Below, in pieces: positions 31,539-51,100 of a DNA stretch of 59,095 nucleotides. Position 1 is the stretch's first letter. The number at the start of each line of letters is the position of its first letter. The stretch spans positions 1-59,095 of the forward strand of contig JAABRU010000016.1 of NCBI GenBank assembly GCA_011390755.1, in the 5' to 3' direction. The notes below the pieces were generated by a model. That model saw only the letters and a list, made by a program, of their open reading frames with translations, was not told the DNA's origin and made no database searches. Made by a program: the position numbers and the translations under genes. The stretch comes from Desulfobacteraceae bacterium. GTDB taxonomy: Bacteria; Desulfobacterota; Desulfobacteria; Desulfobacterales; Desulfococcaceae.

Positions 31539-34500
31539 ATGAAAAAGAAGTATCCGGTGAAAATGATTTCGATTCTGGCAGCAGTCATTCTGATACTGCT
31601 GGCAGTTCCGGCAGTGATGCACGCGGGGGAACCTTCGGATTCCCTTGCTGCGCCCGAAGGTTTTGTGGCGGCTTTGGCGGTTAAGAAAATCAGTCCTTCG
31701 GATGATGTACTGATTCTCAAGGATACGGATGCCTGGGCTTCCCCTGCCAACGAGCAGATTCTCAAGGACATGGGGATTTCTTTTTCCGTAGCCGGTTCAC
31801 TGAATTACGGAGAGTTTGATCTGAACAATTATGAAGTGGTGATTGTGGTTTCCGACCAGCCCCAGGCTTTTTACAATGCCTTTAACGATCATCTGGCGGA
31901 ATTTGAAAATTATATCCGATCCGGCGGTGTGCTGATTTTCAACGGAGCGGACAAGGGGTGGAATCAGGGGTTCTGGGCAGAACTGCCGGGTGGGCTTCAT
32001 CATAAAAAGATATATGACAACACCAACTTTATCAGCGATTCTGCTCATCCCATTTCCCAGGGAATGCCGGCCTCTTTCTGGGGGAACTATGCCAGTCATG
32101 ACTATTTTGAGGATATTCCGGCCGGGGCCAAACTGATTTCCCGAAACAGCGGCAGCGGATATACGACCGTTGAGTATAAGATGGATGCCGGAACGGTGAT
32201 TGCTTCCTGTATCACTCTGGAAGCCCATTACGGATGGGGCTGGCCTGCCAGCACCATGCTGGTCAGTACCATCAAATACGCGCTTTCCCTTCAGGGGGTG
32301 ACACCCAGTGAACCGCCGCTGATCCGGGCGGAACCCGAAAATATGGAAAAAGTCTCGCTGCCGGATCCGGGAACCGATATGAAGGTTCTCAAAATCCATA
32401 ATGACGGTGAAATGTCCCTTTCCTTCCATCTGAGAATACAGGACATGAACCCGGTCAATAATGCCATGGCCCAGCTGGCGGTGAATAATGTTCCGGCAGG
32501 TGTGGCCGGTTCCAATGCAAAACCCCAGAACTATGCCGCGGAATCCGTGAATGTGCAGATCAATGCCGAAGATAAGGTTCTGCTGCTGAAAGATGTCAAT
32601 CCCTGGGCTTCCACCGCCAATGAGGATATTCTGAAAAAACTGGAAGTGGCCTATTCTGTGGCCGGTTCCGCCAATATGGCTTCCCTTACCCTGGGAATCT
32701 ATCAGGTGATTATCGTGGCCTCGGATCAGCCCCAGGCTTTTTATGATGCTTTTCAGGCAAATTTTTCCAAATTCGAGGCTTATGTCACCGGCGGCGGTGT
32801 GCTCATGTTCAACGGGGCCGATAAGGGATGGCAGAACGGTTTCTGGGCCCAACTTCCGGGCGGTGTGACCCATGAGATTAAATATGACGGGGCCAATTAT
32901 GTTGCCGATCCGGATCATCCGGCTGTGGAGGGCGTGGCCAATCATTTTATCGGCAATGCGGCCAGTCATGACCATTTTATGACAGATACAATTCCCGATA
33001 ATGCAAAACTGATCACAAAAGACAGCAGCGGTGCTTTTACAGGCATTGAATACAGTCTGGGAAGCGGGCGGGTGATTGCTTCGGGAATCACTTTGGAAGC
33101 CTCTTATGCCTGGGGATGGGAAGGCGGAAAAATCCTGGTGAACCTCATCCGTCACGCACTGAAAGATCTGCCGCCGCCGCTGGCATGGCTTTCGGCAGAT
33201 ATATATTCCGGCACGGTGGAACCGGAGCAGTATAAGGAAGTGAAACTGTCCTATAATTCCGCTGGCCTGAAAACAGGGGTTTATAATGCTGCGGCAGTGA
33301 TAATGTCCAATGATCCGGTGAATCCGAGCATTAAGGTCGGGGCAGAACTGGAAGTGATTGGGGACAACTGCCCGAAAGCCGATAATCAGACTGTGGAAAC
33401 CTGTCAGGATACAGCCAAGAGTATTACTCTGACGGCCACTCCGGCAGGCGGGACTTACAGCATTGTGAAACAGCCGGAACACGGCACTCTGTCGGGAAAT
33501 GCTCCCAATGTGAGTTATCAGCCGGAAGAAGGATACAGCGGAAGCGACACCTTTACCTTTAAGGTAAACAACGGGGTATGTGATTCCAATACGGCCACAG
33601 TGACAGTTGAAGTAAAAGCCGCCAATTTGAAAGCCGAACCCGGTGCCTTTTCCAAAACAATGGACAAAGTACAACAGCCGGTGACGGAAACTCTGGTGCT
33701 GAAAAATGAGGGATGCGGTAATCTCAATTACGAGGTGAGTATTACCGAGAAAAAATCACCCGAAATCAAAAATCTGGTGGGTGGTCTGCAGGCCCCCCCG
33801 GCCATCCGGAATATTCCGGTTGGGGTGCAGTATGTTCCCGGCGAAATGATTGTCCGCCTTGCGCCCAATGCCAATCCGAATGCCGTGAATCTGCTGGCCA
33901 ATAATGTGGGGGCCATGGTACAGGAACGCATCCCCGCGCTGAATATGGAAGTGTGGCAGGTTCCCAATAACGGGGTGCAGGATATACAGGCACAGGAGGT
34001 GATGATCAATGCCATCTCCATTCTGTCCAATGATCCCAATGTGGTGTATGCGGAACCCAATTATATCCTCAAGGCCTTCCAGACACCCGATGATCCGAAG
34101 TTCGGGGAACTGTGGGGGCTGCATAATGAAGGATGTCCGGAATGTAATTATGACCAGTCAAAAAACGGGGTGCCGGATGCGGATATTGATGCCCTGGAAG
34201 CATGGGATATTTTCAGAGGCAGCACGGATGTTGTGGTGGCTGTAATAGATACAGGTATTGATTACAATCATGAAGATCTGAAAGCCAATATGTGGATGAA
34301 TGAGGATGAAACTCCGGGGAACGGAAAAGATGATGATAACAATGGCTTTGTGGATGATGTGTATGGATATGACTTTGTCAACAATGACAGTGACCCCATG
34401 GACGGCAACCGTCACGGAACCCATTGTGCGGGAACCATCGGAGGAGCAGGAGACAATGCCAAAGGGGTTATCGGTGTCAGCCCGGTTGTCCGTCTCATGG

Positions 34501-36677
34501 CGCTGAAATTTCTGGCAGACAATGGTTCCGGAAGTACATCCGATGCAATCAAAGCCATTATGTATGCAGTGGACAACGGAGCGCATATCCTGAGTAACAG
34601 TTGGGGCGGCGGAGGAGAAAGTGCAGCTCTCAAAGAGGCTATTGCCTATGCCAATGACCGTGACAGGCTTTTTGTGGCAGCTTCCGGTAACAGAGGGGAA
34701 AATATTGATATACTTCCGAGTTATCCGGCTGCTTATGATGTTCCGAATGTTTTTGCTGTTGGTGCCACAGACTGCCTGGACGAGTTGGTATTTTTTTCAA
34801 ATTACGGTGTAAAAAATGTGGATATCGGTGCGCCGGGAACGAGAATTCTGAGTTCTATACCAAATAACACTTATGAAGAACTAAATGGAACCTCTATGGC
34901 AACCCCCCATGTATCCGGTGCGGCAGCTCTCTTAAAAGGGTACAAACCAGCGCTGACGGCTGTGGAGATCAAGGATATGCTCATGAATACCGCTGATCCG
35001 CTGGCATCACTGCAGGGCAAATGCGTAAGCGGTGCGCGTCTGAATGTGCATGAAGCCCTGAAGGCGGCAGATAAGGCAGAGTGGCTGGAACTGAACGGCA
35101 CACTGAGCGGAACTATTCCGGCCGGTTCTTCGGTGAACCTGAGTCTTGTCCTGAATGCCATGAACAAAGCAGCCGGAGATTACAGTGCAAATATCACCAT
35201 CACCCTTTCTGATGATCCCAACAACCCGTCCAAAGTGGTGGTGCCGGTTACTTTGACGGTAAACGGCGGACAGAACCAGTTGGCCATCAACCGCCAGGGC
35301 AACGGAGTCGGCAAAGTAAAGGTAGAAGGGGAAGAGTACAGTCTTCCGTGGCAGAGCATGTTCAGCGAAGGAAAGCAGGTGCATCTGGAGGCCATTGCAG
35401 AGGGTACATCCAGATTTGTCGGATGGTCCAACGGCGAAAAAAAACCTGCCATTTATGTCACCATGCAGGAAAACAAAACCCTTACTGCCGAATTTTCAGC
35501 CGATCCTTTCTACACCCTGGAAATTCAAAAAAGCGGTGAGGGGCAGGTCAAAGTCAATGATGCTGTTCAGAATCTTCCCTGGTCAGAAGATTTTAAACAG
35601 GGAACTTCTGTTACCGTGGAAGCTGTTCCGGGTGCGGAATTTAAAGAATGGTACGGAGATGTGTCTGCTGATGACACAAAAAGCAATCCTGTTACCATTA
35701 TAATGGATGCCAAAAAAGTCATTCAGCCTGTATTCACCTTTAAAGAAAAATGGCAGGCCGAAATTCAGGCCGAAGGTGAAAAAGTCAACGGGCAGGGAGT
35801 GGCCTATGATGAATGGATGCTCAACGCAAATAAAAATATTCTGGTTCATAAGACCAAAGTAACCATCGGAGTCAATTCATATTCCGAGACACTGGACGCA
35901 CCGCCCCTGCCTCCGGAATATTCTGTTAACATGGTTATTCATTCAAATGACTGGAAGAAAAAAATGTTAAAGGATATCCGTGTACAGGGAGAGAATCAGT
36001 ATTCGTGGATACTGGCTGTCAATCCCAGCGGCAATGCCATGCCTCCGAAAGAGCGGACGGCTGTTCTGAGTTGGAATCCCAAACGTTTTAATCCCAGCGG
36101 AACCTACAAACTTCTGAAGGGTTATGATGTAAACAACGGAGAGGTTCTTGTGGCAGATATGCGGACAACTACGGAATATGCTGTGACCGGCGGAAACAGC
36201 GATCAGTTTTTCACCATTGTCAAGTCGGAAGGTGCTTATGAAATGGGACTGAAAGCCGGATGGAATATGGTTTCTTTGCCGATTCTGCCTGATGACCCCA
36301 GCCCCGAAGCCGTATTTCCCAATGCGACAGCCATATGGAAATTTAACCCGGAAGCAGGATATGAAGAACCCGGTGATGCGATAGAAGCGAATGTCGGATA
36401 CTGGGTCAAGGTTCCGAATGAGGAAGTTTTGGCTGTTAAGGGTCAGAATGCGATTCGGGGTCTTAACCTGCCGCTTGGATGCGGATGGCATCTCATCGGC
36501 GCTCCATACGGAAATGTGAGACCGGAACCTTTTGAATGTATTGAAGTCATGTATGATTTTGATGAAATGTATGAACAGGCATTTCAACTCAACGCGGGAA
36601 AAGCTGTATGGGTAAAAATTTCTGAGGATTGTTGTAATAACGGGAAAGCAGTGGAAGTTCATGCTGACACGCAGTAG
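31539..36677 (+). CDS. Giant secreted S8 subtilase with duplicated N-terminal domain
   Basis: 1712 residues, signal peptide about 1-29. Two copies of an unnamed roughly 200-residue domain (about 56-255, 345-545; LKDxxxWAS, SDQPQAFY, GVLxFNGADKGW) precede a cadherin-like domain (about 610-690), an I9/fervidolysin-like propeptide (about 768-850) and the subtilase core with D904 (VIDTGID), H959 (RHGTHCAG) and S1119 (GTSMATPHVSG). After it come two InlB-type repeats (about 1248-1400), the shared W-AEI domain (about 1404-1565) and a GWNMVSLP/GYWVKV module (about 1571-1700). The catalytic triad is intact. No dockerin. A hairpin terminator follows. The C-terminal half matches the module order of the C25 protease at 38093. 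Confidence 0.93.
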   Translation: MKKKYPVKMISILAAVILILLAVPAVMHAGEPSDSLAAPEGFVAALAVKKISPSDDVLILKDTDAWASPANEQILKDMGISFSVAGSLNYGEFDLNNYEVVIVVSDQPQAFYNAFNDHLAEFENYIRSGGVLIFNGADKGWNQGFWAELPGGLHHKKIYDNTNFISDSAHPISQGMPASFWGNYASHDYFEDIPAGAKLISRNSGSGYTTVEYKMDAGTVIASCITLEAHYGWGWPASTMLVSTIKYALSLQGVTPSEPPLIRAEPENMEKVSLPDPGTDMKVLKIHNDGEMSLSFHLRIQDMNPVNNAMAQLAVNNVPAGVAGSNAKPQNYAAESVNVQINAEDKVLLLKDVNPWASTANEDILKKLEVAYSVAGSANMASLTLGIYQVIIVASDQPQAFYDAFQANFSKFEAYVTGGGVLMFNGADKGWQNGFWAQLPGGVTHEIKYDGANYVADPDHPAVEGVANHFIGNAASHDHFMTDTIPDNAKLITKDSSGAFTGIEYSLGSGRVIASGITLEASYAWGWEGGKILVNLIRHALKDLPPPLAWLSADIYSGTVEPEQYKEVKLSYNSAGLKTGVYNAAAVIMSNDPVNPSIKVGAELEVIGDNCPKADNQTVETCQDTAKSITLTATPAGGTYSIVKQPEHGTLSGNAPNVSYQPEEGYSGSDTFTFKVNNGVCDSNTATVTVEVKAANLKAEPGAFSKTMDKVQQPVTETLVLKNEGCGNLNYEVSITEKKSPEIKNLVGGLQAPPAIRNIPVGVQYVPGEMIVRLAPNANPNAVNLLANNVGAMVQERIPALNMEVWQVPNNGVQDIQAQEVMINAISILSNDPNVVYAEPNYILKAFQTPDDPKFGELWGLHNEGCPECNYDQSKNGVPDADIDALEAWDIFRGSTDVVVAVIDTGIDYNHEDLKANMWMNEDETPGNGKDDDNNGFVDDVYGYDFVNNDSDPMDGNRHGTHCAGTIGGAGDNAKGVIGVSPVVRLMALKFLADNGSGSTSDAIKAIMYAVDNGAHILSNSWGGGGESAALKEAIAYANDRDRLFVAASGNRGENIDILPSYPAAYDVPNVFAVGATDCLDELVFFSNYGVKNVDIGAPGTRILSSIPNNTYEELNGTSMATPHVSGAAALLKGYKPALTAVEIKDMLMNTADPLASLQGKCVSGARLNVHEALKAADKAEWLELNGTLSGTIPAGSSVNLSLVLNAMNKAAGDYSANITITLSDDPNNPSKVVVPVTLTVNGGQNQLAINRQGNGVGKVKVEGEEYSLPWQSMFSEGKQVHLEAIAEGTSRFVGWSNGEKKPAIYVTMQENKTLTAEFSADPFYTLEIQKSGEGQVKVNDAVQNLPWSEDFKQGTSVTVEAVPGAEFKEWYGDVSADDTKSNPVTIIMDAKKVIQPVFTFKEKWQAEIQAEGEKVNGQGVAYDEWMLNANKNILVHKTKVTIGVNSYSETLDAPPLPPEYSVNMVIHSNDWKKKMLKDIRVQGENQYSWILAVNPSGNAMPPKERTAVLSWNPKRFNPSGTYKLLKGYDVNNGEVLVADMRTTTEYAVTGGNSDQFFTIVKSEGAYEMGLKAGWNMVSLPILPDDPSPEAVFPNATAIWKFNPEAGYEEPGDAIEANVGYWVKVPNEEVLAVKGQNAIRGLNLPLGCGWHLIGAPYGNVRPEPFECIEVMYDFDEMYEQAFQLNAGKAVWVKISEDCCNNGKAVEVHADTQ

Positions 36678-36703
36678 TATTTGCCGTTTGTAATCACGTT
36701 ATA

Positions 36704-36743
36704 AATCACCCGGCGGTTCATTGCCGGGTGATTTTGAATCTTT
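36704..36743 (+). terminator. Terminator after the subtilase gene
   Basis: An 11-bp perfect stem AATCACCCGGC / GCCGGGTGATT with an eight-base loop is followed by a T-rich tail (TTGAATCTTTT). Confidence 0.85.
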
Positions 36744-36772
36744 TACTTTATAATATGCAACAGGAGGAAAAT

Positions 36773-37276
36773 ATGAAAAAAATTTGTGCAACAGTCGCTT
36801 TTCTGATGATTATGACCGCTTCTGTCTGTATGGCCGGAGCCTGGCAGACCACCCTTTTTATCTGCGGCGAAAACAATGGCGGAGTATATCAGCAGGAAAT
36901 AACCATGGGCGTTGCGGATGAGACTGAAGTGCTTCCTGCACCGCCTGTTCCGCCCGTGTATTCTGTAAACGCTTCCCTTTTCAATGCAGACTGGGAACCT
37001 CTGTGGAAAGATGTCCGTCCGGATGGCAAAACATCCTATGAATGGATTATCGGTGTGGATCCCCAGGGAAACACAGGCACCCCGGCATCAGAGGGAACCT
37101 GCACCCTGACCTGGGGAACATTCCAGATGGGGAAAGGGACATATGAACTCCGGCAGGGAAGCGACGGGAAAGGGGAAATCCTGATTCCGGATATGAAAAA
37201 TGTTACATCTTTCAAGGTTTCCGGAAAAGCCAAAAAACAGTATTTTACCATTGTCTATGTACCCGAAGTGAAATAA
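36773..37276 (+). CDS. Secreted single-domain protein of the shared W-AEI family
   Basis: 167 residues from ATG 36773, with CAGGAGGAAA upstream. Signal peptide about 1-21, ending MAGAW. The whole mature chain is one copy of the roughly 150-residue domain found in four other proteins here: opening AWQTTLF strand, a PAPPVPPVYSVNA turn, WKDVRPDGK, YEWIIGVDPQGN, GTYELRQGSDGKGEI, PDMKNVTSF and a final KKQYFTIVY. No catalytic residues stand out. This is the minimal form of the domain and shows its boundaries. It lies between two terminators, so it is its own transcript or a leaky extension of the subtilase one. Function unknown. Confidence 0.82.
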   Translation: MKKICATVAFLMIMTASVCMAGAWQTTLFICGENNGGVYQQEITMGVADETEVLPAPPVPPVYSVNASLFNADWEPLWKDVRPDGKTSYEWIIGVDPQGNTGTPASEGTCTLTWGTFQMGKGTYELRQGSDGKGEILIPDMKNVTSFKVSGKAKKQYFTIVYVPEVK

Positions 37277-37302
37277 AGGGAGAGGAAAAAGGGACGGTAA
37301 GA

Positions 37303-37329
37303 GGGGCGGGCAGAATGCCCGTCCCTTTT
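37303..37329 (+). terminator. Terminator after the single-domain protein gene
   Basis: Ten-base stem GGGGCGGGCA / TGCCCGTCCC (one G-T pair), three-base loop, then TTTT. An alternative longer pairing uses AAGGGACGG upstream. Confidence 0.7.
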
Positions 37330-37397
37330 GAACCGGCAGAAGAATGACCTCATGCAATATTCAACATTCATCTTTAATTAAAAAGGAGTTTGTATTT

Positions 37398-38060
37398 ATG
37401 ATCAGAAAAAAAACGCTGTTTATCGCAATAATTTTGTCCGTTTTCGGAATGACAATACTTGTTCCGACTGCACTTGCCGGATGGACGGCTTCCATCACGG
37501 CAGAAGGTGAGGAGGTCGGCGGAGCCGTAAAAAAAGCGGAGGTAATTATCGGGGTATCCACCATAGCCAAAACCCAGGCAGCCCCGCCGGAACCTGATGA
37601 ATTCACTGTTATGATGTACCTGCGACCGGCAGACCTGATGGAGAAATATTACTCTGATATTAAAGATAATGATACAGAAAAACACGAATGGATTCTGGAT
37701 ATAAAACCTGCAGGCAATAAGCCTCCCCCGGTAACCCGTACTTCTCTTATTACCTGGGAGCCTACGACATTTGGCCCCGGCACTTTTACGCTTTACAAAG
37801 AAGCGGACGGGAGCGGCGGAATTGCAGTGCCTGATATGAAATCTGTTAATCAGTACGCTGTTCAGGGTATTATGACAGAAACTTCAAAGTTTTTTCTGAT
37901 CAGATATGAACCCGATCTTTCCTATGTCATCAGCATTCTGCAGCTTACGGCAGGTATCTCTCCGGCAGATTTTGATTTTTTCATGGATGTGGATCAGGAT
38001 GAAAAAGTCGGTCTGCCCGAAGCCGTGTATATGCTGCAGGATGTGGCCGGACTGCGCTGA
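37398..38060 (+). CDS. W-AEI domain protein with degenerate dockerin
   Basis: 220 residues from ATG 37398 (AAAGGAG upstream). Signal peptide about 1-27. Residues about 28-172 are a copy of the shared domain (GWTASITAEGEE, APPEPDEFTV, HEWILDIKPAGN, VPDMKSVNQYAV, KFFLIRYE). The C-terminal part is a dockerin whose first calcium loop is lost (the helix YVISILQLTAG remains) while the second is intact (MDVDQDEKVGLPEAVYMLQ). With one loop it may bind cohesin weakly or not at all. 32 bp precede the C25 protease gene with no terminator between, so they are probably cotranscribed. Confidence 0.82.
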   Translation: MIRKKTLFIAIILSVFGMTILVPTALAGWTASITAEGEEVGGAVKKAEVIIGVSTIAKTQAAPPEPDEFTVMMYLRPADLMEKYYSDIKDNDTEKHEWILDIKPAGNKPPPVTRTSLITWEPTTFGPGTFTLYKEADGSGGIAVPDMKSVNQYAVQGIMTETSKFFLIRYEPDLSYVISILQLTAGISPADFDFFMDVDQDEKVGLPEAVYMLQDVAGLR

Positions 38061-38092
38061 TTTTTTATTACCCTTTAAGACAGGAGGAAAAA

Positions 38093-41000
38093 ATGCATTA
38101 TTTCATAAAAAAATTTTATATACCCGATTCCCCCCTGCGAAAACTGCTTTCCCTGTGGATTGCAGTTGCCGTATTTATATCATTCCCCTTTATTCAGCCC
38201 TCCAAAAGCGGTGCGGAGCAGATTGTTTTTGAAAAAACCATTGTGGTCCGTGAACGCAGGGATGCAAATGATGATATCCCCGATGATATCGGCCCCCCGG
38301 TGGAGGGAGAACAGATTTTACCACTGGCTTTGGATGATTTTCCGCCTGTTACACCGGCGGAACTGGAAGAAGATGATACAGAAAGCGGCGAGGAGGTCAA
38401 TATCAGCGATATGCCTCCCTTTATGGATGAATATCCGGAAGTGGAAGAACAGGATATTACAGAAGAGGATGCGGAAAGTGAAGAGGCCGTTGAACTGCAG
38501 GACATGACGCCTTTTCTTGAAAACTATCCTTTTGCGGAACCTTTGGATGTCACTGAAGATGATACAGAAAGCGATACACCTGTAGCCGAAGAGGAACTTC
38601 CCCCTTTTCTGGACAATTATCCTGTTGTGAGTGAATCGGAAAGCGAAGATGATGACAGCGAGGAGTTGCAGGAAAACGATATCGGTATCCAGGGTTATCT
38701 TCCCAATCTTACGCCTTACAAACCCTCCGGATGGAGTGCTGCAATCGTTCTTTCCGACAGAAGCGGAACCCGTACCGATACGGCCATACAGGCAGGCAGT
38801 TCCACCTACATAGATTATGCCTATGCCAATAACGGCGGATCGGATATTGGCAGCAAATTTTATTCAAGACTGTATATTAACGGCAGTCCGGTCAGAACCG
38901 GTGCTTCCTATGGACTGAAAAAAGGCTATTATCGCTGTATATCAGATTTCCGCTATACATTCCCCAAAGCCGGAACCTATACCGTAAAACTGGTCTGCGA
39001 TGTGTACAGACAGGTTTCCGAATCCAGTGAATATGACAATACCTGTCAGCGCAGCAAAAGCGCTGGAGATAATAATTATGCAAAACCCAATCTGATAGCT
39101 TACAGACCCTCCGGATGGAGTTCTGCCATTGTGGTTTCCGACCGCACGGGAACCCGCACAAATAACACTCTCACAGCCGGAGACCGGGGATATATTGACT
39201 ATGCTTTTATTAACAACGGACAGGCGGATGTCCCCAATACATTCTATTCGGGTCTGTATATCAACGGCAGTCTGGTCAGAAAGGGAACTTCCTACGGTCT
39301 GAAAAAAGGATATTACGCGTATGCAAGTGATTACGCTTACACCTTTTCCCGTGCCGGAACCTATACCATAAAACTGGTCTGCGATATGAACGGAAATGTT
39401 TCCGAATCCAGTGAATCCGACAATATCTACCAGCGCAGTATCAGTGTTTCTCCTCCTGTGAATCTGAAACCCAATCTCACACCTTACAAACCCTCGGGCT
39501 GGAGTGCCGCCGTTGTGGTTTCAGATCGCACCGGAACCCGGACAGACAATGTGCTCCATGCCGGGGACAGGGGATATATTGACTATGCCTTTATCAACAA
39601 CGGACAGGCGGATATATCCGGCACTTTTTATTCTGCCCTTGAAATTAACGGCAGCCGTATCCGCACAGGCAGGGTTTACAGTCTTGGCAAAGGGCGTTAT
39701 GCCTACGCATCCGACATCGGATACACTTTTTCCAGTCCGGGTAATTATTATGTCAAACTTGTATGCGATGTGAACAAAAATGTAAGTGAATCCAACGAGA
39801 ATGATAATGAGTATCAGAAAAGGATCAGCATTGCGGACAATGCAAAGCCCAATCTGACTCCCTACCGACCGGGCGGCTGGGCTGATAAAATTGTGGTCTC
39901 GTCTGTTCCGGGAACATCAACAGAAACGACCGTATATGCCGGGCAGACGGCCTATATTGATTATGCCTATGTCAATAACGGGGATGTCAACATATCCGGA
40001 AGATTCTATACGGATTTCTATGTCAATAATACCCGTGTGCGCCAGGGCTATACTGACGGGCTGAACAAGGGACATTATGCCTATATCCGGGATATGGGAT
40101 ACGTTTTTCCCCAGGCCGGAACCTATATCCTGAAGGTTGTATGTGATGTGAATAACAATGTGCAGGAATCCAATGAAAATGATAATTCCTATCAAAAGAG
40201 CAAAGTTACAGGCGGGCCACCCAACGGAAATCCGGTCATCCGGGTTTCACCGGCAAATATTTCCATGTCCAATAATCAGAACATGGCACTGGATCTGCCG
40301 GACGGAACCTGGGTGCCTTTCGGCATCGGTGCGGCTGCTCTGCCCCAGAAATCCCCGGACACCAAGATTCTTCAATCCGGAAAGGATGCTTTGGAACTGA
40401 ATCTGTTTACCAACGGCATGTTTGTGAATGAAGCAGCAGAGGGTATTGATATTTATAAAATACTCCAACTCGGAGAGTATCACGGTAATCTGCCTCCGGG
40501 CAGCCCCAACCTGCCGGTTGTGCGCAAATATATCTATGTTCCCCAGGATGAAGCTCCGGTGCTGAGTTATGAACTCAATGAGCCGGTAAGTCTTCCCAAT
40601 TATCTGGTCTATCCGGTGCAGCCACCGGCTTTTGACACAGAAGGTGCGGAAACTCCTGCGTTTTATATGGATCAGGCTGTGTATGGTCAGAATCAGTGGC
40701 TGCCCGCAGAAAATGTCTATCTGGAACCGGCGGAAATGATCCGGGGGCACAGAGTACAGGTTCTGAATATCTGCCCCTTCCGTTACAATCCGGTCACAAA
40801 AGAACTGCAGGCATTTCCGGATATTGATGTACGGGTAGAATTTAAAGCCCAGCCCGGGGTAGCGGATATCCGCTATTCCTCACCTGAATTTGACAATTTT
40901 GTGCAGGGTTCGGTGGTCAACCCCGAAGCCTTTATCGGATACCAGAATGTAAACGGGGTATTTGCGGCCGGTGCCCAGTATCTGATTATCACCGCTCCGG

Positions 41001-43858
41001 AATTTCTGGGACCCGCCAATGTGCTGAAAAACGCCAAAATTGCCAAAGGGATTTCCACCATTGTAAAAACGACCGGTGAAACCGGCAGAAGCAAAGACCA
41101 GATCAAAAACTATATCAAAAATGCCTATAATACCTGGTCACCGGCCCCCGCCTATGTGCTGCTCCTGGGTGATGTGGAATATATTCCCACAACCTATGAA
41201 AGCACACGGGAACGGGGAACTGACTTGTATTATTCCACGGTTGCCGGTTCAGATTATATACCGGATATATTTCTGGGACGTATTTCTGTGGATACCGAGG
41301 CCCAGGCATATACAGTGATCCGGAAAATAGTGGATTATGAAAATAATCCTCCGAACTCACCGAATTTTTATAAAAATGTGGCGACCGCTGCCTATTTTCA
41401 GGATGATGACGGAAACGGGTATGCAGATCGGAGATTCCTGAAAACCTCAGAAGAAATCCGTGATTTTCTGGCAGGTCAGGGATACAATGTGAAACGGATA
41501 TACACTAGCAATTCTCCGAATCCCACATATTATAACAAAGGGTATTATGGCAACGGTGAAGCCCTGCCGTCTGTTCTGCTGAAAAGAAACGGTTTTTTGT
41601 GGAACGGCAGTGCCGCAGACATATCCTCATCCGTCAATACGGGTGTTTTTCTGCTGACACACAGGGATCATGGCATGGATCGGAATTATGTGGATGAATG
41701 GGGACGCTCTTTCTCTCATACAGGATGGGGCGATCCCTATTTTGTGGAAGACCATATCGCAAATCTGAGAAACGGTTCCCTTCTGCCGGTGGTGCTGAGT
41801 TTCAACTGCCAGTCCGGCTGGTTTGACGGAGAAACCGATCATAATTCCGGCAGAAATTATGAATCTTTCTGCGAACTCTTTCTGCGCAAAGAAAGCGGGG
41901 GAACCGTTGGAATTATTGGGGCTACCCGGAACAGTTACAGCGGTCATAACGATGCTCTGATCAGAGGTGTTATAGATTGTGTGTGGCCGAATTTCTTACC
42001 TTCGGTTGCAAATAACAAAGGCGCTCTTAATCAACTGGGACCTATGCTCTTACATGGAAAACTGGCGATGGATCAGATATGGGGTGATCCCTGGGGTGTC
42101 CGCAAAGAACAGTATGAACTGTTCCACCTGCACGGAGATCCCAGTATGCGCATGTGGACTTCGGCTCCTATGCCTCCGCCTCCGCCTCCGCCGAATCCCG
42201 GCCAGAGCAGCAGCACCTTTGTGGTTTACAATGACGGCAATGCAGATCTGAAGATCACCGGCATGAGCAAGAAATACAACCGAAGCTGGCTGACTTTCAC
42301 ACCAAATACCCCTTTTACACTCTCTCCGGGAAGATCCGCCACGGTAACCGTGACAGTGGACTGGTCCAAAACAGGAGCAGGCATAAATGACGAACAGATC
42401 CTCATTTATTCCAATGATGCGGACAAAAGTCCCCAGACTGTTTCTGTCAGTGCCAGTGACCGGCAGGAAAATTACGCACTGAATCTGCTCAATAACGGTA
42501 ACGGAATGGTCAGAATCAACGGGGAACTGTTCACTCTGCCCACAGAGCAGATTTTTGCCAAAGGCGAATCCGTAACCCTGGAAGCGGTTCCGGACGGAGA
42601 CTGGCAGTTTGAAGGCTGGGATCAGGGAGGACTGGCCATTAATGAAAACCGTTTTACGGTTGTCATGGATTCGGACAAAACCCTTGAAATCAATTTTGCC
42701 AATCATCATATTCCCCATTATCCGCTTCAGATTTCCAAACAGGGCGGAAACGGGAGAATCCGGGTGAACGGCCAGCCCTATGAACTGCCTTTTGCCTATT
42801 CTTTTGCCCAGGGTTCTGCTGTAAAAATTGAGGCATTTCCGGCCGAGGATTTTGAGAAATGGACAGGGGCTGCGGACAGCACGGATAATCCCGTCACTGT
42901 CACCATGAACGGAGACCGGCAGCTGGTGTGTGTGTTCAAACAGGCTTCTCCGCTAACGTGCCAGTCGGACATCCGGGTAAACGGTGCGGCTTTGAACGGT
43001 CTGAGTTATGAAGAATGGCTGAATCAGGGAGGCAATGAAAATGTTCCGGTAAACAGTTTTACCGTCCAGGTCGGGCTGGGAGAACAACCGGAACTGCTGG
43101 ATGCCCCACCGGATCCGCCGGAATATTCAATCAGTGTAAAACTGTGGGATCCCGATGGATGGAAAGGTCCCTTTTTCAGGGATATACGATCAGGAGACGC
43201 GGTTGCCCGGAAATGGGTTCTCGGCATCAGTCCCCACGGGAATATTGAACCCGCGGAACCGGGAACCGCAAGTCTGAACTGGGATCCGGCCTCGCTTTGT
43301 TCCGAAGGAATTTACCGGATCAGGAAAGGATATGACGGAAGCGGAGATATTGTGGTTCCGGATATGCGGGCTGCAGACTCGTATGAAATATCCGACAGTG
43401 AGGAACTGCAGTATTTCAGCATTGAATATTTCAGAGATACACCGGTGGATATGGAACTGACAGCCGGATGGAACCTGATTTCCCTGCCGGTAAGCCCGGA
43501 TGACAATCAACTGTCCTCTTTGTTTCCGGAAGCCACAGTGGCCTATAAGTTTGATGAAACCTATCAGCCGGTAAAGCAGTTGTATCCGGGTATCGGATAC
43601 TGGGTCAAAGTGCCGGAAGATAAAACTTACAAAATCAGCGGCCAGCCTTTCCGTCAGTATTCCCTGGAACTGTCTGAAGGATGGCATCTCATGGGCGCGC
43701 TGAATACAGCCACGGCTCCGGTTCCGACTCCGGCAGATGCCATTTCCGCAAAATTCGAGTTTGAAGAATCCTATATCGAAGCGGATCAGCTTACACCGGG
43801 GAAGGGATGCTGGGTAAAAATTGTCAAACCATGTGTGTTTTCAGTGAGTTCTCCATGA
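38093..43858 (+). CDS. Giant gingipain-like (C25) cysteine peptidase with CARDB repeats
   Basis: 1921 residues. N-terminal signal/TM (about 15-42), an acidic stretch with three repeats of PPF(M/L)xxYP type (about 85-195), four CARDB-like repeats of about 120 residues (start about 204, 331, 459, 584), a linker/prodomain, and the C25 core (about 962-1330) with likely catalytic H1193 (THRDHG) and C1239 (SFNCQSGW). Then a BACON-like sandwich, two InlB-type repeats, the shared W-AEI domain (about 1620-1780, with a YEEW insertion) and a GWNLISLP/GYWVKV module to the end. Gingipains cut after Arg or Lys; specificity here is unknown. CAGGAGGAAA precedes the ATG, and a strong terminator follows. No T9SS sorting domain is evident, so the secretion route after Sec is unclear. 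Confidence 0.92.
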   Translation: MHYFIKKFYIPDSPLRKLLSLWIAVAVFISFPFIQPSKSGAEQIVFEKTIVVRERRDANDDIPDDIGPPVEGEQILPLALDDFPPVTPAELEEDDTESGEEVNISDMPPFMDEYPEVEEQDITEEDAESEEAVELQDMTPFLENYPFAEPLDVTEDDTESDTPVAEEELPPFLDNYPVVSESESEDDDSEELQENDIGIQGYLPNLTPYKPSGWSAAIVLSDRSGTRTDTAIQAGSSTYIDYAYANNGGSDIGSKFYSRLYINGSPVRTGASYGLKKGYYRCISDFRYTFPKAGTYTVKLVCDVYRQVSESSEYDNTCQRSKSAGDNNYAKPNLIAYRPSGWSSAIVVSDRTGTRTNNTLTAGDRGYIDYAFINNGQADVPNTFYSGLYINGSLVRKGTSYGLKKGYYAYASDYAYTFSRAGTYTIKLVCDMNGNVSESSESDNIYQRSISVSPPVNLKPNLTPYKPSGWSAAVVVSDRTGTRTDNVLHAGDRGYIDYAFINNGQADISGTFYSALEINGSRIRTGRVYSLGKGRYAYASDIGYTFSSPGNYYVKLVCDVNKNVSESNENDNEYQKRISIADNAKPNLTPYRPGGWADKIVVSSVPGTSTETTVYAGQTAYIDYAYVNNGDVNISGRFYTDFYVNNTRVRQGYTDGLNKGHYAYIRDMGYVFPQAGTYILKVVCDVNNNVQESNENDNSYQKSKVTGGPPNGNPVIRVSPANISMSNNQNMALDLPDGTWVPFGIGAAALPQKSPDTKILQSGKDALELNLFTNGMFVNEAAEGIDIYKILQLGEYHGNLPPGSPNLPVVRKYIYVPQDEAPVLSYELNEPVSLPNYLVYPVQPPAFDTEGAETPAFYMDQAVYGQNQWLPAENVYLEPAEMIRGHRVQVLNICPFRYNPVTKELQAFPDIDVRVEFKAQPGVADIRYSSPEFDNFVQGSVVNPEAFIGYQNVNGVFAAGAQYLIITAPEFLGPANVLKNAKIAKGISTIVKTTGETGRSKDQIKNYIKNAYNTWSPAPAYVLLLGDVEYIPTTYESTRERGTDLYYSTVAGSDYIPDIFLGRISVDTEAQAYTVIRKIVDYENNPPNSPNFYKNVATAAYFQDDDGNGYADRRFLKTSEEIRDFLAGQGYNVKRIYTSNSPNPTYYNKGYYGNGEALPSVLLKRNGFLWNGSAADISSSVNTGVFLLTHRDHGMDRNYVDEWGRSFSHTGWGDPYFVEDHIANLRNGSLLPVVLSFNCQSGWFDGETDHNSGRNYESFCELFLRKESGGTVGIIGATRNSYSGHNDALIRGVIDCVWPNFLPSVANNKGALNQLGPMLLHGKLAMDQIWGDPWGVRKEQYELFHLHGDPSMRMWTSAPMPPPPPPPNPGQSSSTFVVYNDGNADLKITGMSKKYNRSWLTFTPNTPFTLSPGRSATVTVTVDWSKTGAGINDEQILIYSNDADKSPQTVSVSASDRQENYALNLLNNGNGMVRINGELFTLPTEQIFAKGESVTLEAVPDGDWQFEGWDQGGLAINENRFTVVMDSDKTLEINFANHHIPHYPLQISKQGGNGRIRVNGQPYELPFAYSFAQGSAVKIEAFPAEDFEKWTGAADSTDNPVTVTMNGDRQLVCVFKQASPLTCQSDIRVNGAALNGLSYEEWLNQGGNENVPVNSFTVQVGLGEQPELLDAPPDPPEYSISVKLWDPDGWKGPFFRDIRSGDAVARKWVLGISPHGNIEPAEPGTASLNWDPASLCSEGIYRIRKGYDGSGDIVVPDMRAADSYEISDSEELQYFSIEYFRDTPVDMELTAGWNLISLPVSPDDNQLSSLFPEATVAYKFDETYQPVKQLYPGIGYWVKVPEDKTYKISGQPFRQYSLELSEGWHLMGALNTATAPVPTPADAISAKFEFEESYIEADQLTPGKGCWVKIVKPCVFSVSSP

Positions 43859-43934
43859 CAAACCAGGAATGGCCGGATAAAATGGAGAAAAGAAAGGAAT
43901 TTGCATTCCATTCATAACTGAAGATACGCTATAC

Positions 43935-43964
43935 AAAGGGCGGGCATCTGCCCGCCCTTTTTTT
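43935..43964 (+). terminator. Terminator after the C25 peptidase gene
   Basis: Twelve-base inverted repeat AAAGGGCGGGCA / TGCCCGCCCTTT followed by TTTT; a strong intrinsic terminator. Confidence 0.93.
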
Positions 43965-43979
43965 CTCTAAGGAGGGGGT

Positions 43980-46100
43980 ATGAAAAAACAATTCTGTGTG
44001 AGCTGTTTTATTTTTTTATTTCTTTTTTATCCGTCGTCTGTCGTTTATCCTGCCGAATATTTTAAAGGGGATATTGATTCCAGTGGTGAAACCGATCTGG
44101 GAGATGCCATTACGGTTTTGAAATCCCTGACCGGTATTGAATCCGGCGATTTCTTTATGGATGCTGAAATCAACAAAGACCGCCGGATCGGCATGGAAGA
44201 AGCTGTATATGCTCTCCAGAGCGTGGCCGGAATCAGGCGTTCCGAACCCTTTGAAATCTATGATTTTGCAGACGGTATGCAGGGCTGGGAGGCGGGTTTT
44301 TCAGATTATCCGCCGCCCCTGGAGGAAAATTATGAACTGAATTCCCAATGGCAGAGTCTGCCGGAAAATCTGCCGGAAGGGAATGGGATTTTCATCACAG
44401 GTATGAACCAGAATCAGAATCTCTTTATGTTCATCAAACAGAAACTGGAAGGCCTGGAACCCCATACCCTGTACCGGATATTTTTTGAAGTTGATATTGC
44501 CAGCAATGCTGCTTCGGGGTGTGCGGGAGAAGAAGGGGCCATGGGGGAAGATGTTTTTGTAAAAGCAGGGGCTTCCCTTTATGAACCCATGCCATATAAA
44601 AGTACGGTCTATGTCATGAATATTGAAAAAGGAGACCAGGGAACCGCAGGGAAAAATGCAATTATACTTGGTCATATTGCAACCGGACAGACCGACTGTG
44701 AAAATACGGTTTATGAAATCAAAAACCTGGATAACCTGGATCAGCCCTTTGAATTTGTTTCCAATGACCAGGGGGAAATATGGGTATTTACGGGAACCGA
44801 TTCGGCCTATATGGGAGCCACGGCTTTATATTATTCCCGGATTAAAATTACATACAATAAAGTTACGGAAAATGATACAGACGGAGACGGGGTGCCGGAT
44901 AACCATGATGCTTTTCCCGATGATGCCAATGAATGGCGGGATACCGATGAAAACGGGATCGGAGATAATACGGACCCGGATGACGATAATGACGGAATGA
45001 CGGATGAATGGGAGAATCAGTACGGTCTGAATCCCCTGTACAAAGATGGGGTTTATGATGCGGACGGAGACGGGGTGAGCAATCTGGATGAATTTGAACG
45101 CGGAACCAATCCTTTTAATCATCCGCCGTCTGCACCGGTACTGTCTTTTCCCGGAGATGAGGAAACCGTTATGTCCCTGACTCCGGAACTGTCTGTGGGA
45201 CAATATGAGGATCCGGATGATAATTATCCCCTTGCATCTGTCCACTGGCAGGTCAGCACAGATCCGGAATTTACGGAGCTGATTGTGAAGGAGACCAGTG
45301 AAGACGGGCTGCGTTCTTTCACGATTCCGGAATCCGGACTGACATCGGAAACTGTCTATTACTGGCGGGTGCGTTTTACGGATGACCAGAAAGAAAGTTC
45401 GGACTGGTCCCCCATCCATCTTTTCAAAACCCCCAGGGTTTTCCGTTTTGATTTTGCCCAGGGGTATGAGGGATGGAGCGGGGGGTTTGCCGATTATGTT
45501 TCAACTGATGAAGATTTATATAAATTGTTATGGCATCGAAGACTTATTCCTGAGTCCCTGCTGAATCCGGATCAGGAAAATATGTCTGAATATGGTCTTT
45601 ATGTGACGGGTGATAACCGCAGCGATGATCTTTTCATGTTTATAAAAAAAAGATTGGAGGGACTTGAACCGGATACAAAGTATGGGATCATCTTTATTGT
45701 AAAGTTTGGCACTAATTCACCTTCGGGATGTATTGGAGTAGGCGGCAGCCCCGGTGAAGACGTTTCAATGAAAGTCGGGGCAGTAATCAGAGAACCCAAG
45801 TCCTGCAGTCCTGAAAATGGGAAATTTCAGATGAATATGGACATAGGACAACAGATGGTAGGCGGCAAAGATGCTATTGTCATCGGCAACATTTCCAACG
45901 GTCTGGAAGAATGTATCAACTGGGAATACCGTTTCAAAAAGCTGGATAATATTGCAAATCAATTTGAAGCCACCACCGACCACAACGGTTTCCTATGGGT
46001 GATGATCGGGACGGATTCCGGTTTTGAAGCCACAACTTCCCTGTATTATACAAATATTGAAATCCGCCTGATTGAAAAGGGGAATATTCAGGTGAAATGA
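43980..46100 (+). CDS. Secreted protein with N-terminal dockerin, duplicated domain and TSP3 repeats
   Basis: 706 residues, AAGGAGGGGG before ATG 43980. Signal peptide about 1-26. A dockerin sits at the N-terminus, unusual for the type (about 30-88; GDIDSSGETDLGDA, AEINKDRRIGMEEA). Two copies of an unnamed roughly 190-residue domain follow (about 95-295 and 485-700), sharing DFAxGxxGW, LFMFIKxxLEGLEP, SGCxGxxG, GTDS and ALYY-type lines; these look like carbohydrate-binding-type beta-sandwiches. Between them are TSP3 calcium repeats (DTDGDGVPDNHDAFPDD) and an FN3-like domain. No catalytic site seen. It may be an adhesin or carbohydrate binder attached by dockerin. Confidence 0.82.
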   Translation: MKKQFCVSCFIFLFLFYPSSVVYPAEYFKGDIDSSGETDLGDAITVLKSLTGIESGDFFMDAEINKDRRIGMEEAVYALQSVAGIRRSEPFEIYDFADGMQGWEAGFSDYPPPLEENYELNSQWQSLPENLPEGNGIFITGMNQNQNLFMFIKQKLEGLEPHTLYRIFFEVDIASNAASGCAGEEGAMGEDVFVKAGASLYEPMPYKSTVYVMNIEKGDQGTAGKNAIILGHIATGQTDCENTVYEIKNLDNLDQPFEFVSNDQGEIWVFTGTDSAYMGATALYYSRIKITYNKVTENDTDGDGVPDNHDAFPDDANEWRDTDENGIGDNTDPDDDNDGMTDEWENQYGLNPLYKDGVYDADGDGVSNLDEFERGTNPFNHPPSAPVLSFPGDEETVMSLTPELSVGQYEDPDDNYPLASVHWQVSTDPEFTELIVKETSEDGLRSFTIPESGLTSETVYYWRVRFTDDQKESSDWSPIHLFKTPRVFRFDFAQGYEGWSGGFADYVSTDEDLYKLLWHRRLIPESLLNPDQENMSEYGLYVTGDNRSDDLFMFIKKRLEGLEPDTKYGIIFIVKFGTNSPSGCIGVGGSPGEDVSMKVGAVIREPKSCSPENGKFQMNMDIGQQMVGGKDAIVIGNISNGLEECINWEYRFKKLDNIANQFEATTDHNGFLWVMIGTDSGFEATTSLYYTNIEIRLIEKGNIQVK

Positions 46101-46121
46101 TGAGTGTTGAATGCGATTCTC

Positions 46122-46145
46122 GTTCCCACGCTCCCGCGTGGGAAC
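46122..46145. repeat. GTTCCCACGC palindrome (REP-like)
   Basis: Perfect 10-bp stem GTTCCCACGC / GCGTGGGAAC with TCCC loop, between two genes. A near-identical copy is at 47741-47764 and a fragment near 31370. No T-tract, so not a classic terminator on this strand. Confidence 0.85.
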
Positions 46146-46198
46146 GCATCCCGGACGTTCTGCGTCCCGTCAATAATCGCTTATAAAAAGGAGAATGT

Positions 46199-47701
46199 AT
46201 GAAATTCAGAATGATAGGTACAGCACTGATATTTTTTTCCCTGATACTTTTCCCCTGCCTTGCCGGTGCGGCCTGGCAGGCCGAAATTCTGGCAGAGGGA
46301 GAGGATTTGGATGTACCCAACAAAAGTTCCGTCACCATCGGTGTTCAAAACGAAGCCGAAACAACGCCATCGCCACCGTCCCCTCCTTCCTATTCCTGCA
46401 ATCTCCGGATTGCACCGGCCGACTGGTCTGATTATCTGGCCACAGATATCCGGAAAGAAGGAGAGAAGACATACTGCTGGATTCTTGCGGTCAATCCCCA
46501 CGGCAATGCAGGATCTCCGGTTTCCCGCACCACCACAGTTTCATGGAATCCGGCAGATTTCGGAGAAGGGGAATATGAACTGAGGGAAGGATATGAATGT
46601 TCCGGAACAGTGGTGATAGCGGATATGAAACAGGTGAATTCCTATGAAGTGAGCGGTGAAGACAGCGAGCAGTATTTCAGCCTGACCCTCACAATGCCCG
46701 AAAACAGCAACAATAATACAAATAATATACCGCAGGAACCGGATTCGGATCAGGACGGTATTCCGGACAATGCCGATACCGATGATGACAATGACGGTGT
46801 GCCGGATGAATCTGATGCCTTTCCTCTGAATGCAGGGGAGCAGAAGGATACAGATAATGACGGAACCGGTGACAATGCCGATACCGATGATGATAATGAC
46901 GGGGTACCGGATGCAGAAGATGTCTTTCCTTTGGATCCAAAAGAGCAGAAGGATACAGACAATGACGGAACCGGTGACAATGCCGATACCGATGATGACA
47001 ATGACGGAATGCCCGATGAATGGGAGATCCGTTACGGACTGAATCCCCTGCAGAATGATGCGGATGCAGACGCGGACGGAGACGGGCTTTCCAATCTGGA
47101 AGAATATCAGCAGGGAAGTGATCCGCTTTCCGCTGCTGTGATTTCTCCGCAACCGGAACCTGATCCCGCACCGAATTCTCCCCCGGCTCAGCCGCTTCTC
47201 CTGTCTCCGGCAGACAATGAAAGTGATGTCGTTCTTACCCCGCTTCTTCAGACCGGGGCTTTTTCCGATCCGAATACCGGAGACAGTCACGGGGAGACTC
47301 GCTGGCAGATCAGTGAAACAGCAGATTTTTCTGAAACCGTACTGGATATTACAGATACCGAATCTTTGACAGAATTGCAGATGGAAGAAGGGGAACTCGC
47401 AGAAGATACCCAATATTTCTGGAGAGTCCTGTTTATTGATAATCAGCAGGGGGCTTCGGAATGGTCAGAACCTTTCCGCTTCCGCACAATGGCCAATGGT
47501 GAGCCGGAAACACCTGAACCGGAGAACCCGGACAGCCCCACCGAAACACCTGAGCCGCCTTCCGACCCCGAGGGTGAAGTGACAGATACAGACCAGGCCG
47601 GGGAACCTGGCGATAATCAGGATACAGATGCATCAGAGGAAAATCAGACTTCCGATGGCGGTGGAGGCGGAGGATGTTTTATCTCTGTACTGCCGTTTTG
47701 A
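46199..47701 (+). CDS. W-AEI domain protein with TSP3, FN3 and Gly-Cys C-terminus
   Basis: 500 residues, AAAAAGGAG before ATG 46199. Signal peptide about 1-23. Residues about 24-167 are the shared domain (AWQAEILAEGED, SPPSPPSYSC, YCWILAVNPHGN, ADMKQVNSYEVSG, EQYFSLTL). Then TSP3 calcium repeats (about 182-300) with three nearly identical DTDDDND units separated by spacers that are themselves duplicated at DNA level, an FN3-like domain (about 320-430), an acidic Pro/Glu-rich stretch and the end GGGGGGCFI plus five residues. The last part matches the C-terminus of the cohesin protein at 24320. Probably surface-associated; function unknown. Confidence 0.83.
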   Translation: MKFRMIGTALIFFSLILFPCLAGAAWQAEILAEGEDLDVPNKSSVTIGVQNEAETTPSPPSPPSYSCNLRIAPADWSDYLATDIRKEGEKTYCWILAVNPHGNAGSPVSRTTTVSWNPADFGEGEYELREGYECSGTVVIADMKQVNSYEVSGEDSEQYFSLTLTMPENSNNNTNNIPQEPDSDQDGIPDNADTDDDNDGVPDESDAFPLNAGEQKDTDNDGTGDNADTDDDNDGVPDAEDVFPLDPKEQKDTDNDGTGDNADTDDDNDGMPDEWEIRYGLNPLQNDADADADGDGLSNLEEYQQGSDPLSAAVISPQPEPDPAPNSPPAQPLLLSPADNESDVVLTPLLQTGAFSDPNTGDSHGETRWQISETADFSETVLDITDTESLTELQMEEGELAEDTQYFWRVLFIDNQQGASEWSEPFRFRTMANGEPETPEPENPDSPTETPEPPSDPEGEVTDTDQAGEPGDNQDTDASEENQTSDGGGGGGCFISVLPF

Positions 47702-48169: not shown

Positions 48170-51100
48170 ATGCAAAAAACATCTTCATTATTCAGCACAC
48201 TGCTCACAGCACTCACCATCCTCACCCTCTGTCCGGGCATAGCACAGGCGGAAATGAGCGTGCAGATTCTCACCACCCCCGACCAGAAAATCCTGCCCCT
48301 GGAAGTGGAATTTGAGGCCGTCGTGAGCGGCGGCACGGCCCCCTATACCTATACCTGGAATTTCGGAGACGGGGGATCATCCACTTTGCCCAAAGACAGT
48401 CATTATTTCAGGGAATCGGGGCAGTATAATGTTACTCTGCTGGTTACAGACACGGCAGGCGGCTACGGTTTTGCATCAAAAACCGTAACGGTTTCATCAA
48501 GTACATTCAACCCTGAAAATGCAGTTTTTACTATTTATTCAGATACAAGTATTATATCTTCAATGGTTCAGGACAGTAAAAACAGTAATATCTTATGGGT
48601 TGGCACAACGGGCGGAATGATCAGGCTGAACACTGTCACAGATGAAAAGAAATTTTATCTGAATGAACTTCCGGGTATTGATATAAGAGATGTTATACAA
48701 TCATCTGATGGAGCCTTGTGGATGGTAACCAGTGGTGGACTTGCCCGATTTGATTATGAAACAAATCAATGGACGATTTTCAATACGGACAACAGTGGAC
48801 TGCCGAGTATATATATTTACTCTCTTCTACAGACATCCGACGAAGCCATTTGGGTGGGAACATGGGGTGGACTTGCTCGATTTGATTATAAAAAAAATCA
48901 ATGGACAATTTTTAATACGGGCAACAGCGGTCTGCCGCATAATTATATACATTCCCTTATGCAGACATCCGATAAAGCCATTTGGGTAGGGACATGGGGC
49001 GGACTTGCTCAATTTGATTATGAAACAAATCAATGGACAATTTTTAATACGGGCAATAGCGGTCTGCCCAGTAATTTTATTTACTGCCTTGTTCAGACAT
49101 CCGACGGAGCTATTTGGGTCGGAACAGGTGGTGAAGGGCTTGCCCGATTTGATTATGAAAAAATCCAATGGACGGTTTTCAATACGGGCAACAGCGGACT
49201 GCCGGATGATAATATTACATCCCTTATTCTGACATCTGACGGAACTATGTGGGTAGGAACACATGATGGCCTTGCCCGGTTTGATTACGAAAAAAAACAA
49301 TGGGCGGTTTTTAATACGGGCAACAGCAGTCTGCCCAGTAATTTTATTCGCTGTCTTGTGCAGACATCTGAAGGAGCTATCTGGGCAGGAACAACTGAAA
49401 ATCTTGCCAGCCTTAAATATGAAACAAATCAATGGACGGTTTTCAATACGGTCAGCAGTGGGCTGACAGCTAATTGGATTAAGTCCCTTATACAGACATC
49501 CGATGGAGCCGTTTGGCTGGGAACATCCAGCGGTTTCGCCCGCTTTGATTATGAAAAAGATCAATGGACAGTTTTCAATACAGACAACAGCGGACTGCCG
49601 AATGGCTGGATTGAGTGCCTTATGCAGACAACTGACGGAGCCATTTGGCTGGGAACATCCAGTGGCGGTCTTGTCCGCTTTGATTATGAAGATAATCAAT
49701 GGATGATTTTCAATACGGACAACAGCAGTCTGCCGAATGACAGGATTGCTTGCCTGCTACAGGCCTCCGACGGTACGGTATGGGCTGGAACATGGGGAGG
49801 GGGGGTTGCCCGCTTTAATTATGAAGACAATCAATGGATGATTTTTAACATGAATAATAGCGGAGTGCCGGATGACCATATTCATTGCCTTATGCAGACA
49901 TCTGATGAAGCCATTTGGGTGGGAACATACAAAAATGGTCTTGCCCGATTCGATTACGAAAAAAATCAATGGACAGTTTTCAATACTTACAATAGTGGTC
50001 TATTGAGTAATGTGATTCTATCTCTTTTGCAGACATCCGATAGAAATGTATGGGTGGGAACAAGTGACAGCCTTGCAAAGTTTGATTACGGGAAAAATCA
50101 ATGGACTGTTTTCAATTCGTACAACAGCGGATTGCCGAATAGCAATATTTGGTCCCTTATGCAAACATACGACGAAGCCGTATGGATGGGAACAGGCAAT
50201 GGTCTTATCAAGTTTGATTATAAAACTGAACAATGGATCGTATGGAATTCGTACAATACTGGACTTTCAGGTGATATTATAGTATCGCTTCTCCAAAATA
50301 ATGACGGAACCATTTGGGCCGGAACACAATTTGGCGGCCTGAACCGCCTCTCCTTCCCCTCCACCACCCAATCCCCCGGCCACCTAATCCTCTTAGCCGG
50401 AGGCGGAGCCGCACAGACCAACCCCCTATGGAAAACCACAAAAGAACTTGCCACATCTGTGTACCGCATTTTCAATTCCAGAGGATTCAAAAACACCGAC
50501 ATTTTCTTCATGTGCCCGGAAAAATGGGCCGATTTCAACGGGGACGGCTATGACGACCATATTGTGGACCGCCCCATGCCGGATGAGGACCGCAACCTTA
50601 CTGTATCCGACCTGGAATACGCCATTACCGAAAGGGCTGTAAACGCCCATACCCCCGGAACCCCGCTCTTTCTCTACATCATAGACCACGGCTACGCGGA
50701 CGACGGCATCAAAGGCCCGTCCTTCATGATTTCCCCCGGAGAAATCCTCTATGCGGACGAACTCAATACCATGCTGAACACTTACGAAAGCGAAACCAAC
50801 GGACAGGTGATTGTCATCAACGAATCCTGCTATTCCGGAGCCTTCATGTCCCGCCTGAAAAAACCGGGCAGAATTGTCATCACCTCGGCATCGGATCATA
50901 TTGTCAATTACGACAACTACGGCTCCGACAGCTTCACCCACCATTTTCTCCGTTATCTCTTTGAAAACAGCACAATCCACCAGGCATTCTCCAAATCCGT
51001 GCGCCGCCTGCAGGAATCCAACCTCACCTTCTACCAGACCCCGCAACTGGACGACAACGGGGACGGTAAATATGATGATAATGACGGATTGCTAACGGCA

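Follow-up and report, generated by a model that had tools for sequence, protein, structure and literature searches.

What does a domain do when it recurs in five neighbouring genes for predicted-secreted proteins? The locus that raises this question lies in a 59,095-nucleotide stretch of DNA from Desulfobacteraceae bacterium (GenBank assembly GCA_011390755.1, contig JAABRU010000016.1, positions 1 to 59,095), referred to below as the window. In it, five neighbouring proteins, A to E, all predicted to be secreted and all encoded on the plus strand, carry one copy each of a domain of ~145 residues. Its presence on two predicted peptidases, on non-catalytic partners and alone in a small protein, within a conserved gene set, makes binding the best explanation. 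We tentatively propose, with a probability of about 0.38, that the domain has no catalytic role and serves for docking within an extracellular peptidase assembly, its copies binding each other or a common partner.

Five copies of one domain

The copies are located as follows.

35748..36233, plus strand: domain copy 1 (gene A), with YxEW insertion
36836..37273, plus strand: domain copy 2 (gene B, solo)
37476..37916, plus strand: domain copy 3 (gene C)
42953..43438, plus strand: domain copy 4 (gene D), with YxEW insertion
46268..46702, plus strand: domain copy 5 (gene E)

According to BLASTP, copy pairs share 30-43% identity over 129-158 residues (E values from 1e-19 to 4e-43). Local alignment scores of all ten pairs were 177-319, versus at most 58 in shuffled sequences (200 shuffles per pair), and the five-copy alignment contains 18 invariant columns. 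By these comparisons, the five copies are one domain family. A sequence-only reading of the window had placed five copies of a repeated domain here, and its limits agree with ours within a few bases. All the motifs it listed were found; the opening W is replaced by C in copy 4, which it had called divergent. The YxEW insertion that it ascribed to two copies is present in copies 1 and 4 of the five-copy alignment, and the protein said to consist of little else, 167 residues encoded at 36773, is indeed a signal peptide (by eye) followed by the domain.

Proteins of the cluster

The genes follow the order A-B-C-D-p706-E on the plus strand. In B, C and E the domain directly follows the predicted signal peptide, and in A and D it lies near the C-terminus; signal peptides of all five proteins were read by eye.

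31539..36677, plus strand: gene A, 1712 residues, predicted secreted subtilase (S8) with ThuA-like, Big_9 and Flg_new_2 modules, ending in copy 1 and a GWN module (Pfam, open reading frame)
36234..36674, plus strand: GWN module of A, unnamed, ~140 residues, C-terminal, with half-repeats GWNMVSLP and GWHLIGAP (alignment)
36773..37276, plus strand: gene B, 167 residues, predicted signal peptide and domain only; start in the open reading frame list, GTG at 36728
37398..38060, plus strand: gene C, 220 residues, predicted signal peptide, domain and truncated dockerin-like tail; start in the open reading frame list, 37344
37914..38057, plus strand: dockerin-like tail of C, fused directly to the domain, first calcium loop missing
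38093..43858, plus strand: gene D, 1921 residues, predicted secreted gingipain-like peptidase with Propeptide_C25, Peptidase_C25, four CARDB stretches, Flg_new_2, copy 4 and GWN (Pfam)
43439..43855, plus strand: GWN module of D (alignment)
43980..46100, plus strand: p706, 706 residues, predicted secreted, between D and E, with an N-terminal dockerin-like loop pair, TSP3 and two copies of another unnamed domain
46199..47701, plus strand: gene E, 500 residues, predicted secreted, with copy 5, TSP3 repeats and C-terminal GGGGGGCFISVLPF

The modules that the sequence-only reading saw joined to the domain were largely confirmed: Pfam identified Peptidase_S8 in the first open reading frame, Peptidase_C25 in the fourth and TSP3 in the fifth. 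The dockerin it named corresponds to a dockerin-like tail in the third; Pfam is silent there and a local dockerin profile matches. The GWN modules of A and D had no Pfam match up to E 1, and that of A had no match among PDB sequences up to E 1.

Conservation of the gene set

All five window copies have counterparts in genome G028, from another family of the order, on two contigs with the same gene order. A'-B'-C' extends to the edge of contig C59, and D', a 306-residue protein and E' follow from the edge of contig C426 onward; the two contigs are presumably neighbours. The 306-residue protein is related to p706 (131 of 296 aligned columns identical, 44%) and gives a weak dockerin match below the cut-off (E 0.0019).

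In a tree of 44 copies, each window copy paired with its G028 namesake, with bootstrap/SH-aLRT (approximate likelihood ratio test) values of 94/85 for A, 93/62 for B, 100/98 for C, 100/98 for D and 99/93 for E. Among the 41 inner branches of this tree, support was good for nine and 18 were open; the bootstrap did not reach convergence. Domain identities between the window and its G028 namesakes, from A to E, were 54, 39, 37, 49 and 53%. Given the namesake grouping and the shared gene order at these identities, the gene set appears either to be old or to have moved as a unit. A clade of eight rows (93/97) united the subtilase and C25 copies of the host genome (G000) and G028 with protein P0007; a YxEW-type insertion was read in all eight.

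A solo gene beside the domain-GWN end

Solo genes with known context were found once per genome in five genomes: gene B in the host, C59 675-1232 in G028, C439 4231-4773 in G387, C650 6008-6577 in G043 and C40 9606-10118 in G121. All five lie directly 3' of a same-strand gene whose product ends in the domain and GWN; in G387, this upstream gene is the open piece after a TGA. Downstream of a sixth domain-GWN end (G043, contig C176), the next gene encodes the domain with a short additional tail, in which the local dockerin profile gives no match.

Two observations concern these loci. On contig C439 of G387 (L057, around 4830-5528), the TGA breaks the domain-GWN frame upstream of the open piece, which may reflect a pseudogene, an error or recoding. 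On contig C40 of G121 (L065:10235-12040), one open reading frame contains both a cohesin match and a domain-GWN end.

Distribution of the domain

The host genome (6.9 Mb, 379 contigs, 91% complete) contains six clear domain copies, five in the window and one on contig C358, where it belongs to a subtilase with a dockerin-like tail. With the host counted, the domain was present in 3 of 58 relatives, in 5 of 389 genomes of the class sample and in 1 of 395 genomes of the phylum sample, the latter being the host itself. The other carriers in the class sample (4/388, with 3-12 matches each) were G028 (8 matches), G043 (12), G387 (3) and G121 (3), which represent four other families of the order; all five members sampled from the family of the host lacked the domain. 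The suggestion that the module is specific to this locus was not upheld, as the domain occurs on another contig of the host, in four other genomes of the order and in type IX secretion system (T9SS) cargo of distant bacteria.

The latter was reached through metagenome proteins P0009 and P0010, which a search with A's domain had retrieved. The end of P0009, used as query in turn, yielded 4589 matches among 7991 scored. Among the 120 matches listed, the alignment covered 89-100% of the region in at least 18 proteins (P0009-P0026), and the Desulfobacterota profile found two domain copies in each of the 18, 36 in all; P0115 aligned over 90% of the region, yet contained no copy by this profile. In 18/18, 154-164 residues separate the two copies; this stretch shows the GWN pattern in 16 proteins, and in the other two a similar form was recognised by eye. 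Behind the second copy, every one of the 18 has a 92-105-residue tail that includes YPNPF. PF18962 was present in 17 of the 18 according to precomputed annotation, and P0024 scored above the TIGR04183 cut-off. P0013 is a Zixibacteria protein per its source. P0040 and P0085 carry a divergent form of the domain, linked by weak reciprocal profile matches and shared columns; this form lacks the NPxGN turn, and P0085 also contains an S8 domain. Judged by profile matches and shared columns, the window family extends to T9SS cargo of distant bacteria. In this cargo (Zixibacteria and others; P0009-P0026, P0040, P0085) the domain precedes a T9SS tail, unlike in the host: its genome had no TIGR04183 match (0/1, E up to 0.01), and the five window proteins had no Pfam match to Por_Secre_tail or a T9SS sorting domain up to E 1.

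Relation to named families and predicted fold

No Pfam or NCBIfam entry matched the five window proteins over the domain near any cut-off. For a wider set (32 copies, drawn from five genomes plus metagenome proteins), Pfam returned 11 families (best E 0.024) and NCBIfam nine (best E 0.021, with 13.3 bits where the cut-off is 1100), and no family matched more than one of the 32 members. With a 16-member wider set, Pfam returned two families, each in 1 of 16 (best E 0.024). Against PDB sequences, the profile of the copies found no chain below E 0.19 and a 16-row wider profile none below E 0.24. The earlier statement that this is not a named family holds within Pfam and NCBIfam for the five copies and the wider set alike; in neither database did an annotated family strongly match all copies.

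The AlphaFold model of the domain is all-beta with a predicted local distance difference test (pLDDT) score of 97.1, and the fold is predicted to be a beta-sandwich. Comparison with PDB structures gave no confident match, only weak generic beta-sandwich matches. For the model of the A domain with GWN, the top Foldseek match was the ankyrin ZU5-ZU5 tandem (PDB 3ud2; E 3.5e-3, probability 0.87), with a root-mean-square deviation of 14.2 and a template modelling score of 0.26; 3ud2 was absent from the best 50 matches of VIA-align. Pfam ZU5 matched none of the five window proteins or the 32 copies. The ZU5 likeness of this model is a weak lead.

Cohesin-dockerin context

The host genome contains nine cohesin matches, none of them in the window. 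Its dockerin matches up to E 0.01 number 19, of which ten exceed the cut-off. The dockerin of p1154 lies above the Pfam cut-off and that of p1670 below it; that of p706 was recognised by reading only, and a piece of p706 served as a seed of the local dockerin profile. Neither Pfam nor this profile detected a dockerin in A, B, D or E. In a domain-dockerin protein of G387, both calcium loops are present (by reading).

Cohesins were found in all five domain carriers versus 60 of the 389 class-sample genomes. For the carriers besides the host (4/4), P was 0.0005 with genomes treated as independent; they are in fact related, and large genomes may be favoured as well. C25 peptidases were present in 4 of 5 carriers versus 96 of 389.

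A similar combination is described for a single anaerobe, Ca. Stygibacter, which has dockerins and cohesins along with S8 and C25 peptidases; there, dockerins tie the peptidases to a cohesin scaffold in what the authors read as a cellulosome-like complex (PMC8542988). Unlike those peptidases, A and D of the window bear the domain and GWN instead of a dockerin, and the consulted parts of that account do not mention this domain. Syntrophic sulfate reducers share the domain vocabulary of the cluster: in the portions of PMC10553843 consulted, cohesin/dockerin, CARDB and S8 proteins are interpreted as serving adhesion, and its main text, as consulted, contains none of the terms C25, subtilase and gingipain.

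Proposed role and alternatives

The genes around the domain are consistent with an accessory module for binding or docking. In the proposed assembly, all five proteins would be exported, and the domain would join the predicted secreted peptidases A and D to the non-catalytic partners B, C and E outside the cell, its copies binding one another or one shared partner. Solo protein B would act as an adaptor or cap beside the domain that lies close to the end of A, and the dockerin-bearing proteins may connect the assembly to cohesins encoded elsewhere in the genome. We regard as rather unlikely the fuller proposition that a self-docking beta-sandwich, so far undescribed, holds together a peptidase assembly on the cell surface, made up of subtilase, gingipain-like peptidase, solo adaptor, dockerin-like-tailed protein and Cys-tailed TSP3 protein, with the module and GWN reused in distant T9SS cargo.

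A close rival, somewhat less probable, is a substrate- or surface-binding module: in the manner of carbohydrate-binding modules, the beta-sandwich would bind a polysaccharide, a peptide or a component of a matrix and bring the peptidases there. The domain had no Pfam match to a carbohydrate-binding module, and its structural matches were those generic ones noted above. Docking is favoured because the solo gene stays beside the domain-GWN end.

It is unlikely that the domain is a passive spacer, a further Ig-like linker in multi-domain surface proteins that has no partner. It does share chains with Big, CARDB and Flg_new_2 modules, and in G043 two copies form a direct tandem without a linker. 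However, a mere spacer is hard to square with a solo protein encoded in five genomes, always directly after a domain-GWN gene. Residues G25, W93 and M120, kept by 96-100% of the sequences in every one of three remote groups (W93 by 74/74 sequences), also argue against it. An export or maturation tag, read by an outer-membrane secretion or anchoring machine, is improbable: in 18/18 two-copy T9SS proteins only the YPNPF-bearing tail follows the second copy, but the host genome lacks a T9SS tail match, and the placement right behind the predicted signal peptide in B, C and E but near the C-terminus in A and D is unlike a terminal sorting signal.

Several results weigh against docking. Tandem duplication alone would also yield side-by-side copies. 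The five-of-five count for solo genes excludes solo proteins P0002, P0003 and P0005, whose neighbours were unseen, and only 5 of 10 aligned domain-GWN ends precede a solo gene. The grouping of B with its G028 namesake is weakly supported, G121 has the domain and no C25 match, and the 18 two-copy T9SS proteins have no S8 or C25 in their precomputed Pfam annotation. Finally, the first calcium loop is missing from the C-type tail in 3/3 copies (window C, P0004 and G028), which makes canonical cohesin binding by C doubtful.

A well-predicted domain missing from Pfam and NCBIfam marks an unlabelled part of secreted proteins, found both in relatives of sulfate reducers that encode cohesins and in the T9SS cargo of other bacteria. 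Should docking be correct, it would show how anaerobes without a T9SS keep their S8 and C25 peptidases assembled on the cell surface to break down protein; protein B, with its 167 residues, is small enough for a direct test.

Other features of the cluster

The extra domain of p706 comprises ~200 residues (FDFA.GY.GW.GGF.DY ... DLFMFIK), is unnamed and occurs there in two copies, over which Pfam gave no match up to E 0.01. One copy each is present in the E counterpart of G028 and in the adjoining 306-residue protein (44-47% identity).

The cluster is flanked by two further large predicted-secreted proteins at 26221-31233 and 48170-51634. Both combine a region resembling Peptidase_C13 with a dockerin or dockerin-like tail at the C-terminus; Lcl_C repeats occur in one of them and a regulator-type propeller in the other.

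Four proteins share a short motif at their extreme C-terminus, a G- or D-rich stretch, CF(I/V/M) and then 4-5 residues. It was found in gene E (47650-47701) and at L058:5654-7243, L060:4242-4940 and L059:6599-7981. These tails resemble CFI-box tails but end sooner, and the motif is possibly a sorting or lipidation signal.
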